DNA of 64,000 bases from Vibrio sp. ED004 (GTDB lineage: Bacteria > Pseudomonadota > Gammaproteobacteria > Enterobacterales > Vibrionaceae): NCBI RefSeq assembly GCF_023206395.1, contig NZ_CP066149.1, forward strand, positions 1,674,001 to 1,738,000, read 5' to 3'. Each line of letters starts with the position of its first letter. Positions within the stretch are counted from its first letter, which is position 1. A model generated the notes under the pieces. That model had not been told where the DNA came from. It worked only from the letters and a program-made list of their open reading frames with translations, and searched no databases. Positions 1,064 through 5,256 of the stretch are shown here, piece after piece. The position numbers and the translations under genes are program-made.

Positions 1064-1717
1064 CTAAACCGGAGTCACGTACAAGTAGATAGCGAAGAAA
1101 TGGCAAGCGCAGCCCGCCAACACAAACAAGTGCCAGATGGCATGATTATATGGGATGCGTTTTGCCACATAGAAAATCACACCCAGCGAGTAAATCACAC
1201 CACCGAGTGCTAGTAGCACCAAACCACCCATCTCGATATTCATCGCCAGTTGATATACCACAATCAACGACAACCAACCCATCGCCAAGTAAGTCACCAA
1301 TGACAAACGCTTAAATCGGTAGACGAAGGCAATCTTCATAATGATGCCCACCAGCGCGATTCCCCAAATTACCGCCATCAAGCCCATCGCCAATGGTGTT
1401 CTTAAACTCACCAATAAAAATGGCGTGTAGCTGCCCGCGATCAGTAAGTAGATCGCACAGTGATCGAGGGTTTTCAGTAGGCGCTTAGTCTTTTCTGTGG
1501 TGATCGAGTGATAAAGCGTGGAAGCGAGAAAGAGTAGGATAATACTGCTGCCATACACCGCCATGCTCGCAATAGTCAGCATGTCGGCTTGATGGTCAAA
1601 CGCACGAATCAGTAGCAGAATCAAACCAACCAAGCCAAGCACAACACCCAAGCCATGAGTTATCGCATTAGCGCGTTCTTCGATGTTGCTGTATTCGCTC
1701 GCCGATGATGCAGACAT
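1064..1717 (-). CDS. trhA: PAQR/hemolysin III family membrane protein TrhA
   Basis: A 217-residue integral membrane protein with seven predicted helices, related to E. coli YqfA/TrhA and to the progestin/adipoQ receptor superfamily. Family marks seen: NAITHGLG in the first helix, LYHS after the second, the [16 protein letters not shown] helix, and [16 protein letters not shown] near the C-terminus; the His/Asp residues form the presumed metal site. Members are linked to membrane energetics and fluidity, not proven haemolysis. I chose the ATG at 1717 because AGGA lies 5 nt upstream; a start at 1744 adds nine residues without a ribosome site. A 24-bp perfect palindrome lies 46 bp upstream. Confidence 0.9.
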
Positions 1718-1762
1718 GAGTATCCTACTAGAGTAAATGTTCAATTGACCTAGTATTGCACA

Positions 1763-1786
1763 TTAAGCTTACACGTGTAAGCTTAA
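1763..1786. promoter_or_regulatory. 24-bp perfect palindrome, candidate FabR-type operator for trhA
   Basis: Perfect dyad: TTAAGCTTACAC followed directly by its reverse complement. The centre, TTACACGTGTAA, is the kind of site bound by TetR-family lipid regulators such as FabR. On the minus strand a plausible promoter for trhA overlaps it (CTTACA, 17 nt, CAATAC). E. coli FabR is reported to control fabA, fabB and yqfA (trhA), which fits the position. The regulator's identity is inferred. Confidence 0.6.
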
Positions 1787-1788
1787 AT

Positions 1789-1812
1789 TTTTATGACATC
1801 TTTTATGACATC
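1789..1812. repeat. Tandem 12-bp direct repeat
   Basis: TTTTATGACATC occurs twice head-to-tail, directly beside the trhA palindrome and between the trhA and Spo0M-like genes. It may be part of a regulatory site or chance; nothing else supports a function. Confidence 0.45.
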
Positions 1813-1873
1813 AATGACGCCTAAACTGTGTGATGAGACTGTGCTCTCTAAAGCTAAAGAACCAAAGGGTCAA

Positions 1874-2665
1874 CTAAGAGGCGCTATCTAGATACTCAAG
1901 TACCATCTTGCCAGCTTCTTCCGGAGAGGTATCCAATGGCACACTCAATTGACGCTGTAACTGACCTACTCCCAATAAACTCGCCAACATGCCTTTTGCA
2001 CCGTCGCGATTACGGTCTATCTCAAACCAAAGCTTAAGCTCCGTTTCATCACGATGAGCAACAACCTCAAGTTCACGCCAGCGGCCATGATAAGGCCCCG
2101 TCGTCGGAACAAACTCAAACTCTTGAACAAACGGCAGTTCAAAGCCTTCTACCGCTTCACATTCCACTTGGCGGATACGCAGGCCATGAGCTTCAAGTTC
2201 GTTGAAAATACCATCGAGGAGTGCATCAGGACGAACCGTTAAGATGTCTTTATCCGATGGATCAATCGCCATCGCAATATCCAAGCCAGTTTCAAGCCAC
2301 ACTTTTGAGTCACCAATCGTGACCGGTGTATTCAGCGGGACATCAAATTCACACTCAAAATCACGAGTTTCACCTGGTTGAATAACAAAAGCATACGGTA
2401 GGCTCCATTTGGCCAACGAGTATATTTGGTGCATTCGGCGTTTATGACCGCCCTCTTGTCTCTGGGAATTCATGGTGACTTCTTTGACATAGCGGCAACA
2501 TAAATTGAGATCGATATTGTCGATCTCTTGTGGTTGAGCGCCACCATAGACATGCACAATAATGCTCGCCTTCTTGCCTGGATAAAGCACTTCCTGTTGC
2601 AATACAGAATCCACCTTGGCAGATCCAATTCCAAAACTTGCTAACGTTTTCTTTAAGAACGACAT
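1874..2665 (-). CDS. Spo0M-like sporulation-control family protein
   Basis: A 263-residue cytosolic protein matching the Spo0M family (COG4326), an arrestin-like beta-sandwich fold. Bacillus Spo0M affects sporulation, but the family is widespread in non-sporulating bacteria and its role here is unknown. Visible features: N-terminal LKKTLASFGIGSAKVDSVL, the EVLYPGKKASIIVHVYGG strand pair, and a central QPGETRDFECEFDVPLNTP motif typical of arrestin-like domains. The ATG at 2665 is preceded by a strong GGAGG at 5 nt; a GTG two codons earlier would overlap that site, so it was not used. Monocistronic, transcribed away from the structured region to its right. Confidence 0.82.
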   Translation of the reverse strand: MSFLKKTLASFGIGSAKVDSVLQQEVLYPGKKASIIVHVYGGAQPQEIDNIDLNLCCRYVKEVTMNSQRQEGGHKRRMHQIYSLAKWSLPYAFVIQPGETRDFECEFDVPLNTPVTIGDSKVWLETGLDIAMAIDPSDKDILTVRPDALLDGIFNELEAHGLRIRQVECEAVEGFELPFVQEFEFVPTTGPYHGRWRELEVVAHRDETELKLWFEIDRNRDGAKGMLASLLGVGQLQRQLSVPLDTSPEEAGKMVLEYLDSAS

Positions 2666-2804
2666 ATGCACCTCCTTTAAAGCATCATCTTAAGCCTGAA
2701 AGAGGTTCAAACTCAAATATACTGCTCACACTATTTTAGCTCTAATATCGTTTAATTATCACTCAAGCGTCGATTGATAACTTAGATAGTGATAATCTAA
2801 GCCT

Positions 2805-2822
2805 TGATATGCATGCATATCA
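2805..2822. repeat. 18-bp perfect palindrome
   Basis: TGATATGCA followed by its exact reverse complement. It sits between the Spo0M-like gene and a downstream candidate leader RNA; a weaker hairpin (CTTAGAT/ATCTAAG, 2781-2801) precedes it. It could be an operator for the 55-codon transcript or for the divergent gene. No protein can be named. Confidence 0.5.
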
Positions 2823-2826
2823 TTAT

Positions 2827-2935
2827 CCTGATTTATTTTTCGGATTGGCGAAAGCCAGACGAGTGACGCTTCAAGTAATTGAAGTGAAGCTCATGATAAA
2901 TCAGGCCATTAGATTGGCAATGGATATGCCTGACC
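2827..2935 (+). promoter_or_regulatory. Candidate structured 5' leader with alternative stems
   Basis: A perfect 10-bp stem joins 2827-2836 (CCTGATTTAT) to 2896-2905. It encloses a GNRA-capped hairpin (GGC-GAAA-GCC, 2847-2856) and a second hairpin at 2868-2890 (CTTCAA-GTAA-TTGAAG, with an alternative GCTTCA/TGAAGC pairing). The last bases of the closing stem can instead pair TCAGGC (2901-2906) with GCCTGA (2928-2933), just before the ribosome site of the next ORF. Mutually exclusive stems suggest a switch. I do not recognise a known riboswitch class. Expression and ligand are unproven. Confidence 0.45.
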
Positions 2936-2948
2936 GTTAGGTAAATTA

Positions 2949-3116
2949 ATGCGCCCAACAGCTGTCAGGTTCTCGCACACCAACCGTAGTGCGATGCGTC
3001 GTCGTAGTGGCTTTGTTGCTGCTCCAACGGCTAAGAAATTGGCTCCTACAATGACTCTAGTTCAGAAGACTGCTTTATTGGCACCGACTGCAACAAAAGT
3101 AATTAAAGCCGCTTAA
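2949..3116 (+). CDS. Small basic hypothetical protein (55 aa)
   Basis: ORF of 55 codons starting MRPTAVRFSH and ending TATKVIKAA. It has 11 Arg/Lys and no Asp or Glu, so it would be strongly basic. The C-terminal half repeats an APT motif at residues 25-27, 32-34 and 45-47 between Lys-containing segments. AGG lies 7 nt before the ATG, an in-frame stop (2931-2933) precedes it, and an intrinsic terminator begins 3 bases after the stop, so leader, ORF and terminator look like one transcription unit. I do not recognise the protein. It could be a nucleic-acid-binding peptide, a leader peptide, or an ORF lying inside a regulatory RNA. Confidence 0.45.
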   Translation: MRPTAVRFSHTNRSAMRRRSGFVAAPTAKKLAPTMTLVQKTALLAPTATKVIKAA

Positions 3117-3118
3117 CG

Positions 3119-3146
3119 AAAAGCGCAGTTTTTACTGCGCTTTTTT
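3119..3146 (+). terminator. Intrinsic terminator after the 55-codon ORF
   Basis: AAGCGCAG/CTGCGCTT stem, six-base loop and a run of T. It ends the 55-codon transcription unit and isolates yihD. Confidence 0.85.
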
Positions 3147-3247
3147 CTTGCCCGCTCTCATATTGAAATGTGTTTACACATTGGTATTCCCTATCCGATT
3201 TGATACCTTAGCCACAAATCATTATAAAATTTGTGGAGAAATAAAGT

Positions 3248-3511
3248 ATGAAGTGTCATCGCATTGAAGAACTGCTGGAACTGATGGAACCTGAGTGGCA
3301 GAAAGATCAAGAGCTTAACCTATTAGAATTCATCATTAAGCTATCAAAAGAAGCGGGCTACCAAGGCAAGCTTGAAGAACTGACTGACGATGTTCTTATC
3401 TATCACCTAAAAATGCGCAACAGCGAAAAAGATGAAATGATCCCAGGCCTGAAAAAAGACCAAGAAGATGATTTCAAAACCGCGATTCTAAAAGCGCGTG
3501 GCATCCTTTAA
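3248..3511 (+). CDS. yihD: YihD family protein (DUF1040)
   Basis: An 87-residue acidic cytosolic protein, near-colinear with E. coli YihD (89 aa): the [20 protein letters not shown] and [21 protein letters not shown] segments are diagnostic. The molecular function is unknown. In E. coli yihD also lies beside srkA (yihE) and dsbA; here ccoG has come between. A GGAG-like site precedes the ATG at normal distance, and a clear terminator follows, so it is probably monocistronic. Confidence 0.92.
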
Positions 3512-3563
3512 CAGCTTAAATGCGTTAAAGCTTAATTGCCTTATCAATAAATTGCTCAATTCT

Positions 3564-3589
3564 AAAAAGCGACCTCTGGTCGCTTTTTT
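3564..3589 (+). terminator. Intrinsic terminator of yihD
   Basis: AAAAAGCGACC, three-base loop, GGTCGCTTTTTT. Strong GC stem with T-tract. Confidence 0.9.
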
Positions 3590-3837
3590 GTTTCTGTTCG
3601 CTATTTTTTCGTCATAACTGTTATGACTTTTGTTGTTAAAGGTTGATAGCGTTAAAGAAATGAGAACAAGATTGTCGCTATAATCGCCATCCATAAGAAT
3701 CTTCTAAAATAATAAGAGTGAGTGCGATAACAACAAATGCACCAAGCTCAATTTCAACAGGTTCTCTAAACCATACTTTCAAGTAATGTCGTCATGTCCG
3801 ATTTAACCGGGCAAATAAGCCACAAAAAGGATAGTCC
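3590..3837 (+). promoter_or_regulatory. ccoG promoter region with FNR-like site
   Basis: Non-coding. A perfect -10 hexamer TATAAT lies at 3679-3684. TTGAT-AGCG-TTAAA (3643-3656) matches 8 of 10 fixed bases of the FNR site and is centred about 41.5 bp before the predicted start of transcription (~3691), the class II activator position. Further up, GTCATAAC-T-GTTATGAC (3611-3627) is a perfect 8-bp inverted repeat, possibly another operator. No convincing -35 is seen, as expected for an activator-dependent promoter. Confidence 0.45.
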
Positions 3838-5256
3838 ATGAGTCAGGATAAAATCGATATCAAAGATGTGACTCCTAAAACCTTTAACCCAAAAACACAT
3901 AAAGGTAATGGAGATCGATTTAACCCAAGTAACCGAATCTACGTTCGAGAAAGCAAAGGTAAATTCCAACAACTGCGTCGCTATGGCGGTTGGTTCTTAC
4001 TTTTACTTTTTGCGCTTATCCCATGGATTCCATTTGGTGAACGCCAAGCGATCTTGCTCGATATCGGCAGCCAACAGTTCAACTTCTTTGGCACAACGTT
4101 ATACCCACAAGATCTGACCCTACTCGCGATCCTATTTATGATTGCCGCGTTTGGCTTATTCTTCATAACCACCTTCTTAGGCCGTGTCTGGTGTGGTTAT
4201 TTATGCCCACAAACCGTCTGGACCTTCATGTACATCTGGTTCGAAGAGAAACTGGAAGGTGCTGCCAATAAGCGAAGAAAACAAGACTCGGGCAAACTGA
4301 CGAGCAATTTAATCCTCAGAAAAACCCTCAAACACATTGCGTGGTGGGCGATTGCCATTGCGACCGGCTTAACCTTTGTTGGTTACTTCATCCCAATCAA
4401 AGAGTTAGTGGTTGGCTTCTTTACCTTAAACTCGACTTTCTGGCCTGTGTTTTGGGTATTGTTCTTTGCGGGCTGTACCTATGCCAACGCAGGTTGGATG
4501 CGCTCGATTGTTTGTCTGCACATGTGCCCTTACGCACGTTTCCAGTCGGCAATGTTCGATAAAGACACCTTCATCGTTGGTTACGACACAGAACGTGGTG
4601 AAAGCCGCGGCCCTCGTTCTCGTAAAGCCGATCCAAAAGAGCTTGGCCTTGGTGACTGTATTGACTGTAATTTATGCGTTCAAGTCTGCCCGACAGGTAT
4701 CGATATTCGTGACGGCTTACAATACGAATGCATTAACTGCGGTGCGTGTATTGATGCCTGTGACAACACCATGGAGCGTATGGGCTATGAAAAAGGCCTG
4801 ATCAATTACACCACCGAGCACAGACTTGAAGGTCACTCGACCAAGGTAATGCGTCCCAAGCTGTTGGGCTATGGCGCCATCTTGATAGTGATGCTGGGCT
4901 TGTTCTTCGCCCAAATCGCGAGCGTTGATCCTGCCGGCCTAAGTGTTCTGCGTGACAGAAACCAGCTGTTCAGAGTCAATAACCAAGGGTTAGTTGAAAA
5001 TACCTACACCTTGAAAGTGATCAACAAGACTCAACAAGAGCAAGAGTACAAACTCGATGTTAGCGGACTGCCCGATTCTATCTGGTATGGCAAACAGACG
5101 ATTACTGTCGATCCAGGCGAGGTTTTGAACCTACCTATCAGTTTAGGCGTCGACCCAGAAAAACTGAGCTCACCAGTTTCGACAATTCAGTTTATACTCT
5201 CGGATAATGAAGAGTTTACGATGGAAGTCGAAAGCCGCTTTATCAAGAAGCTCTGA
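3838..5256 (+). CDS. ccoG: Cytochrome c oxidase accessory protein CcoG (RdxA/FixG)
   Basis: A 472-residue membrane ferredoxin-like protein that helps assemble cbb3 oxidase, with a role in copper reduction or handling. Several membrane helices lie in the first ~220 residues (LLLLFALIPWIPF, LFMIAAFGLFFITTFLG and others), with the CGYLCPQTVW motif and a CLHMCPYARFQ motif. Two 4Fe-4S clusters are marked by CIDCNLCVQVCP and CINCGACIDAC. A further helix precedes a periplasmic immunoglobulin-like C-terminal domain. AAGGA sits 6 nt before the ATG. Elsewhere it usually accompanies ccoNOPQ/ccoI; here it stands alone beside srkA-dsbA. The upstream FNR-like site fits low-oxygen induction. Confidence 0.95.
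   Translation: MSQDKIDIKDVTPKTFNPKTHKGNGDRFNPSNRIYVRESKGKFQQLRRYGGWFLLLLFALIPWIPFGERQAILLDIGSQQFNFFGTTLYPQDLTLLAILFMIAAFGLFFITTFLGRVWCGYLCPQTVWTFMYIWFEEKLEGAANKRRKQDSGKLTSNLILRKTLKHIAWWAIAIATGLTFVGYFIPIKELVVGFFTLNSTFWPVFWVLFFAGCTYANAGWMRSIVCLHMCPYARFQSAMFDKDTFIVGYDTERGESRGPRSRKADPKELGLGDCIDCNLCVQVCPTGIDIRDGLQYECINCGACIDACDNTMERMGYEKGLINYTTEHRLEGHSTKVMRPKLLGYGAILIVMLGLFFAQIASVDPAGLSVLRDRNQLFRVNNQGLVENTYTLKVINKTQQEQEYKLDVSGLPDSIWYGKQTITVDPGEVLNLPISLGVDPEKLSSPVSTIQFILSDNEEFTMEVESRFIKKL

Follow-up and report, generated by a model that had tools for sequence, protein, structure and literature searches.

A conserved Vibrionaceae leader and arginine-rich microprotein with a putative CsrA/RsmA-type switch at the start site

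Several described systems place a folded RNA in front of a small or regulated gene. Closest to the locus studied here are the leaders controlled by CsrA/RsmA. A review (PMC7652899) describes high-affinity binding of RsmE to an ANGGAN hairpin loop and start-site hairpins that CsrA/RsmA opens (ymdA) or stabilizes (psl), with moaA as a further precedent. Translational riboswitches hide the ribosome site and are closed by a stem with a 3′ strand capable of pairing downstream, and the autogenously controlled leaders of ribosomal proteins precede small basic proteins. Among Vibrio RNAs, the dual-function VcdRP of Vibrio cholerae combines a small ORF and a terminator within about 300 nt.

We analyzed an intergenic unit within a 64,000-nt window of the Vibrio sp. 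ED004 genome (contig NZ_CP066149.1; positions below are those of the window, plus strand unless stated). An earlier note, made from the letters alone, had listed a closing stem around two hairpins, complementary segments TCAGGC/GCCTGA, a short basic ORF, and a terminator, and had proposed a cis-acting switch or a dual-function RNA. All these features are present in the sequence. We found that the leader and its microprotein form a family absent from Rfam, Pfam, and NCBIfam, and that the main element, missing from the earlier description, is a pairing between the leader and the first codons of the gene. Our preferred reading, to which we give a probability of about 0.55, is a CsrA-type switch acting at the level of translation on a disordered arginine-rich microprotein, with the binding and its effect on expression putative.

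Results

Layout of the Unit

The unit consists of promoter-like DNA, a structured leader, a 55-codon ORF, and a terminator. It is flanked by a divergent spo0M-like gene (1874–2671, minus strand) and by yihD/DUF1040 (3248–3511; Pfam 3.2e-45), a constant neighbor lying outside the element. A −10-like GATAAT (2791–2796) marks a putative promoter, recognized by its sequence and absent from the promoter list of a consensus scanner; the transcript start is guessed at about 2803–2805. An inverted repeat near 2780–2801 overlaps GATAAT and is probably promoter DNA rather than leader. Another inverted repeat, TGATATGCATGCATATCA (2805–2822), stands at the presumed 5′ end, where its arms TGATATG and CATATCA around CATG would form a putative stem-loop, P0. 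Its sequence varies between species and the stem is mostly kept. Of 101 distinct upstream stretches, 95 had a P0 stem of at least 5, as did 57% of shuffles; this is a weak to moderate degree of support, and the repeat may be either a 5′ stem-loop or an operator.

Behind the ORF, an inverted repeat with a T run at 3119–3146 (AAAAGCGCAGU-UUUU-ACUGCGCUUUUUU) appears in the minimum-energy fold of the region, in agreement with the intrinsic terminator claimed earlier. In place of this repeat, the consensus scanner gave a smaller terminator at 3110–3125; among 140 distinct 3′ regions, a custom script, run with no control, located a hairpin and T run in 136. The 373-nt region as a whole was more stable than all of 100 shuffles (z −4.09).

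Distribution and Known Families

Part or all of the 373 bases was recovered by blastn in 106 of 118 Vibrio genomes, the source genome included, a few of these matches spanning only the terminator or a short stretch. Because of these matches and of the two-sided changes in stem P1 (see below), we consider the region conserved beyond chance. A protein search of genome contigs returned 64 loci, every title being Vibrio or Vibrionales. Protein searches gave 51 and later 119 clusters. Their readable organisms belonged to Vibrio or Aliivibrio, and one UniRef label named a Photobacterium; none of the 119 has a precomputed Pfam domain, and the named ones are hypothetical or uncharacterized. At E up to 0.1, a covariance model of the full element matched 185 of the 247 genomes examined from Vibrionaceae, distributed over 4 of 13 genera. 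We infer two of the genera to be Aliivibrio (our g11) and Photobacterium (g8), with weak matches in the latter (E 3e-6 to 0.07). The same model, run against 369 genomes of the class with stricter filters that lose weak matches, found only the source genome (E up to 0.01).

The gene context is uniform. Of 184 loci analyzed by tblastn, 181 contained yihD and 167 had both flanks; the remaining 17 showed no match to at least one of the flanks in the stretch examined. The ORF was present in all 184, a count that reflects their collection as matches to the ORF or the leader, and wherever yihD was found the ORF lay upstream on the same strand. Of 16 genomes that gave no match to the full model and in which yihD was sought, 9 contained it; in 4 of these yihD loci (L211–L214) a related short ORF lies upstream. 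In the other 5, the ATG-started frames within 620 bases included none of this kind. A model of the junction alone matched weakly outside the family in five genomes of one genus and in two others. The five matches all fell inside one conserved gene, which we take to be rho, and lacked UGGAUUGGC; they were rejected, as were, on inspection, the two other outside matches and a second match in genome G009. With this model no credible second gene context was found, a second weak match in genome G011 (E 0.7) falling outside the check.

No Rfam family matched the element at gathering score. Rfam 15 gave nothing near gathering score in window positions 1500–4500. Among 20 relatives, the only Rfam match was to V_AS5 (Vibrio RNA AS5) in a V. 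metoecus locus (L087:3253–3377), between terminator and yihD and thus downstream of the gene and outside the element. This is perhaps an inserted repeat, and V_AS5 had no match in the 1500–4500 region of the window. The locus was named in no title or abstract opening among the literature matches listed. The V. cholerae neighbors are presumably VC0037/VC0038, and these names as a query returned no paper. In the portions of the text available, yihD is not named in PMC12889724, and neither yihD nor DUF1040 is named in PMC8632094 or PMC8577284.

A Microprotein under Selection

The 55-codon ORF (2949–3116) contains, as first described, 11 basic residues (K/R) and no acidic ones. The lack of acidic residues is true of the window but not of the family: many relatives carry them, for example E39, and the mean net charge over 139 distinct coding sequences is +8.5. 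The pN/pS ratio is 0.24 in codons 8–22 and 0.50 in codons 23–55, and the stretch VRFSHTNRSAMRRRSGF is largely kept among relatives. The protein ends in -AA in 126 of the 139 coding sequences, with synonymous change: all four Ala codons are used for residue 54 and three for residue 55. Given the low ratio in codons 8–22 and the conserved end, we conclude that the ORF is under protein-level selection. Synonymous change beneath a fixed end and fixed arginine residues likewise indicates that the protein itself matters. Together with the covariation of P1, this supports the earlier proposal of a cis-acting structured leader on a small gene.

AlphaFold predicted a chain mostly without structure (mean pLDDT 65, pTM 0.16, one helix at residues 37–43). 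Pfam and NCBIfam gave no match and no ribosomal-protein identity, and a PDB sequence search gave nothing significant, the best match being bL35 at E 0.51. From the charge, an RNA- or ribosome-facing role might be guessed. The ssrA tag, a degron for ClpXP, ends in -AA, and by analogy the conserved end could direct rapid turnover by ClpXP, a guess open to testing. In V. mexicanus (L094) and in one locus of the genus taken as Aliivibrio (L168) the ORF is frame-shifted, so some strains may be able to do without the protein.

A Covarying Three-Way Junction

The leader contains a three-way junction (2827–2905) closed by stem P1 (CCTGATTTAT/ATAAATCAGG, 2827–2836/2896–2905), the perfect 10-bp stem around two hairpins that had been noted before. 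We started from 109 distinct leaders, having dropped L127, in which no P1 was found, and with L125 and L126 unplaced at that stage; of these, 67 were below 95.5% identity and 66 were aligned, L134 being left out for its very long P3. In this alignment, P1 shows two-sided changes in 8 of 10 pairs and 93% of cells paired, which answers positively whether the stems are conserved and covary beyond close strains, at least for P1. The inner pairs vary freely and the outer three hardly at all, a pattern that would fit a second partner for the CAGG strand without proving one. P2 (2845–2849/2854–2858) has two-sided changes in one of five pairs and P3 (2861–2863/2890–2892) in two of three; a GGA at 2842–2844 is fixed. 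The GNRA loop described in one hairpin is present as GAAA (2850–2853) in the first, but is not conserved, occurring in 70 of the 111 leaders in which our script located the loop.

For the whole proposed structure, 95.5% of cells were paired, compared with 89.5% in shuffles and 27.6–42.3% with partners slid along the alignment. Two-sided changes were found in 109 cells (29 in shuffles and 20–38 with slid partners), P1 carrying most of them. Given only the alignment, RNAalifold found P1, three P2 pairs, and the hairpin between leader and coding sequence; the proposed P3 pairs and the ANGGA hairpin discussed below were not predicted. The leader thus has, by covariation and in part by RNAalifold, an aptamer-like fold of the kind expected of a riboswitch. 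The junction has been lost in four Vibrio loci (L179, L180, L182, and L183) that retain the gene, the ANGGA hairpin, and the pairing between leader and coding sequence. In L179 and L180 the protein is 37–38 aa long.

The Start Site Pairs with the First Codons

A second structure joins the leader to the gene. Segment B, GCCUGAC (2928–2934), pairs with segment C, GUCAGGU (2964–2970), which comprises codons 6–7 and the first base of codon 8; inside this helix, the ribosome-site stretch GUUAGG (2936–2941) pairs with CCCAAC (2954–2959) in codons 2–4. The B:C helix has 99.4% of cells paired and two-sided changes in two of seven pairs, and the inner helix has 97.3% of cells paired; in L117 and L165 both arms of the latter are altered and, judged by eye, apparently still pair. 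Together the two helices have 98.5% of cells paired, against 97.8% in shuffles and at most 42.5% with slid partners. Two-sided changes occur in three pairs and four cells, compared with 0.2 in shuffles, although partners slid by +1 reach the same count, so that the covariation is thin. The GCCUGAC:GUCAGGU type of pairing was found in 112 of 119 distinct loci, the exceptions being L119, L121, L123, L126, L176, L177, and L181.

The codons offer evidence of a separate kind for the pairing. In the 112 distinct genes of 55 aa, every one of the 111 valines at codon 6 is encoded by GTC, and 111 of 112 arginines at codon 7 by AGG. AGG is a rare Arg codon in this group. Arginines 17–19, in contrast, use the ordinary CGT/CGC codons, which vary. 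In 1,500 random gene pairs, pS was 0.25 in codons 2–7 and 0.63 in codons 8–55. Counting wobble pairs half, a run of pairing between the pre-start region and the first codons scored at least 6 in 113 of 119 distinct loci; shuffles reached this score in 14% of cases and yihD starts in 8 of 57. With the threshold lowered to 5, the counts rose to 115 of 119 loci, 25 of 57 yihD starts, and 47% of shuffles. The AGG at codon 7 (2967–2969) is explained, on this sequence evidence, by RNA pairing. Since codons 6–7 are frozen while later Arg codons vary, the leader-to-gene pairing appears to hide the ribosome site and the AUG in one hairpin, as suggested by conservation, codon freezing, and a small amount of covariation. 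In two Vibrio loci (L121 and L123) the ORF is cut to 29–30 aa and the codon 6–7 pairing has decayed; the stem of the ANGGA hairpin is compensated there (GACA/UGUC).

An ANGGA Hairpin beside the Ribosome Site

Between the junction and the ribosome site lies a hairpin, GGCA-AUGGAUA-UGCC (2916–2930), absent from the earlier note, that looks like the published CsrA/RsmA recognition element. A G/C-rich stem with an A-N-G-G-A loop was found in 117 of 119 distinct leaders, in none of 57 yihD starts, and in 2.2% of shuffles. The loop letter N is U in 90, A in 19, G in 4, and C in 4, the A and GGA being fixed; the two misses, L126 and L181, have by eye AUGGA and AGGGA in weaker ACA/UGU stems. In 2 of 66 sequences, one stem pair is altered on both sides, turning GGCA/UGCC into GACA/UGUC. 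The hairpin shares three bases, GCC, with the B:C stem, and RNAalifold prefers the latter.

The site is kept in L121, L123, L176, L177, and L181, which have lost B:C. In L211–L214, without the junction and B:C, it is kept by eye upstream of the start, with the rest of the leader different and with no clear isolated ANGGA hairpin in the minimum-energy folds. As judged from these sequences, the ANGGA hairpin has outlasted the switch stems in evolution. An ANGGA in a short hairpin loop close to the ribosome site and the AUG (2949) is the arrangement expected of a CsrA/RsmA target, although the ribosome site contains no GGA, so that no site covers the Shine–Dalgarno sequence as in the classic design. 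We infer that the element is a CsrA target, and CsrA is the best-supported putative partner of the leader. The passages considered from a V. cholerae CsrA regulon paper (PMC7858070) make no mention of the locus.

Alternative Folds and a Possible Ligand

The earlier note had proposed that TCAGGC (segment A, 2901–2906, in the 3′ strand of P1) competes for GCCTGA (2928–2933). The two segments are complementary and conserved, with 95.2% of cells paired, but their pairing shows no covariation beyond shuffles (207 of 500) and is minor in folding. We therefore reject A:B as a proven alternative fold and keep it as a possible one; switching between folds is only inferred.

In folding models of 118 leaders, B:C was formed in the bare RNA at a median of 0.976. 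Blocking the 5′ strand of P1 lowered B:C in 104 of 118 (mean 0.83 to 0.51) and raised A:B in 106 (mean 0.05 to 0.22, median 0.04). The freedom of the ribosome site hardly changed (0.316 to 0.332), and that of the wider start region fell (0.573 to 0.518). Forcing the ANGGA hairpin raised the mean freedom of the ribosome site from 0.305 to 0.416, the value rising in 100 of 108 leaders; the energy penalty averaged 5.1 kcal/mol (0.1 to 10.6). Keeping the loop merely unpaired had no effect (0.306). Because forcing is costly and an unpaired loop alone does nothing, the direction and size of any regulation are guesses of the model.

These results bear on the leading rival explanation, an orphan riboswitch in which the junction binds a small molecule or ion. 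When bound, P1 would stay closed and leave GCCUGAC free to hide the start; when unbound, CAGGC would pair with GCCUG and open it. The strong covariation of P1, the fixed junction letters (UGGA before P2, an A-rich J2/3, and AU after P3), the near-invariant outer P1 pairs, expected if CAGG has a second partner, and the fall of B:C upon blocking P1 all speak for such a switch. Of its two mutually exclusive folds, though, B:C is supported and A:B is minor and shows no covariation; blocking P1 hardly frees the ribosome site and makes the start region less free; the junction is missing from the four loci that keep gene and hairpin; and the junction-only model has one gene context, the unchecked G011 match aside. 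We consider this explanation unlikely. A little more doubtful still is a new riboswitch class in which the junction responds to a metabolite or ion in concert with the CsrA site, possibly with a ClpXP-degraded microprotein integrating two signals. A ligand for the junction is nevertheless the most interesting alternative to CsrA control.

Discussion

Under CsrA control, a short monocistronic mRNA would encode the disordered arginine-rich microprotein, and its leader would keep translation low by pairing GCCUGAC with codons 6–8 and the ribosome site with codons 2–4. A dimer of the CsrA family might dock on the ANGGA loop and stabilize the small hairpin. By withdrawing GCC from the stem that sequesters the start, this would alter how accessible the ribosome site is. 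Opening, as in ymdA, is favored by the energy calculation, and closing, as in psl, is possible. The P1–P2–P3 junction, found in most members, might be an added layer that keeps the CAGG strand from reaching GCCUG and that perhaps supplies a second GGA.

Autogenous control, with the basic protein binding its own leader as ribosomal proteins do, is improbable. An Arg-rich protein does adjoin a structured leader, but the protein has no known domain and is retained by relatives with much less leader structure. We regard an RNA thermometer, in which the start-site hairpin melts with temperature, as slightly less probable again: the ribosome site and AUG do sit in a moderately stable hairpin, yet a fixed ANGGA loop and a covarying three-way junction would both be superfluous in a plain thermometer. 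Least probable is a dual-function or trans-acting sRNA, or an attenuator of yihD, with the ORF secondary, for although the unit of about 340 nt ends in a terminator and almost always adjoins yihD, yihD also occurs in the five loci that yielded no ORF of this kind, and the pattern of change in the coding sequence shows that the protein matters.

The unit adds to Vibrionaceae an RNA element and a microprotein family new to the databases searched. In it, the opening codons of the gene itself appear to conceal the start site, and a site resembling that of an RNA-binding protein has persisted where other parts of the fold have gone. Should CsrA be the partner, this would be a deeply conserved Csr target in the family and a handle on the role of the microprotein; if the junction binds a ligand, it would be a new orphan riboswitch.

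Compared with known systems, the unit stands at different distances. We rejected identity with VcdRP, which, as described (PMC8672173), lies at vc2278/vc2279, encodes a 29-aa protein, and has a four-cytosine pairing site. Ribosomal-protein leaders share the small basic protein behind a structured leader, but the protein here is not a recognized ribosomal protein, the bL35 similarity being insignificant. Translational riboswitches are alike in the hidden ribosome site and in a closing stem whose 3′ strand could pair downstream, whereas here there is no Rfam match, the alternative fold does not covary, and a single gene context is found. The nearest likeness is to the CsrA/RsmA leaders of ymdA, psl, and moaA (PMC7652899): they too have an ANGGA hairpin loop near a hairpin that hides the ribosome site. 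In the Vibrionaceae leader, with CsrA binding putative, the hiding strand instead lies in codons 2–8, the ANGGA stem shares bases with the hiding structure, and a three-way junction has been added.
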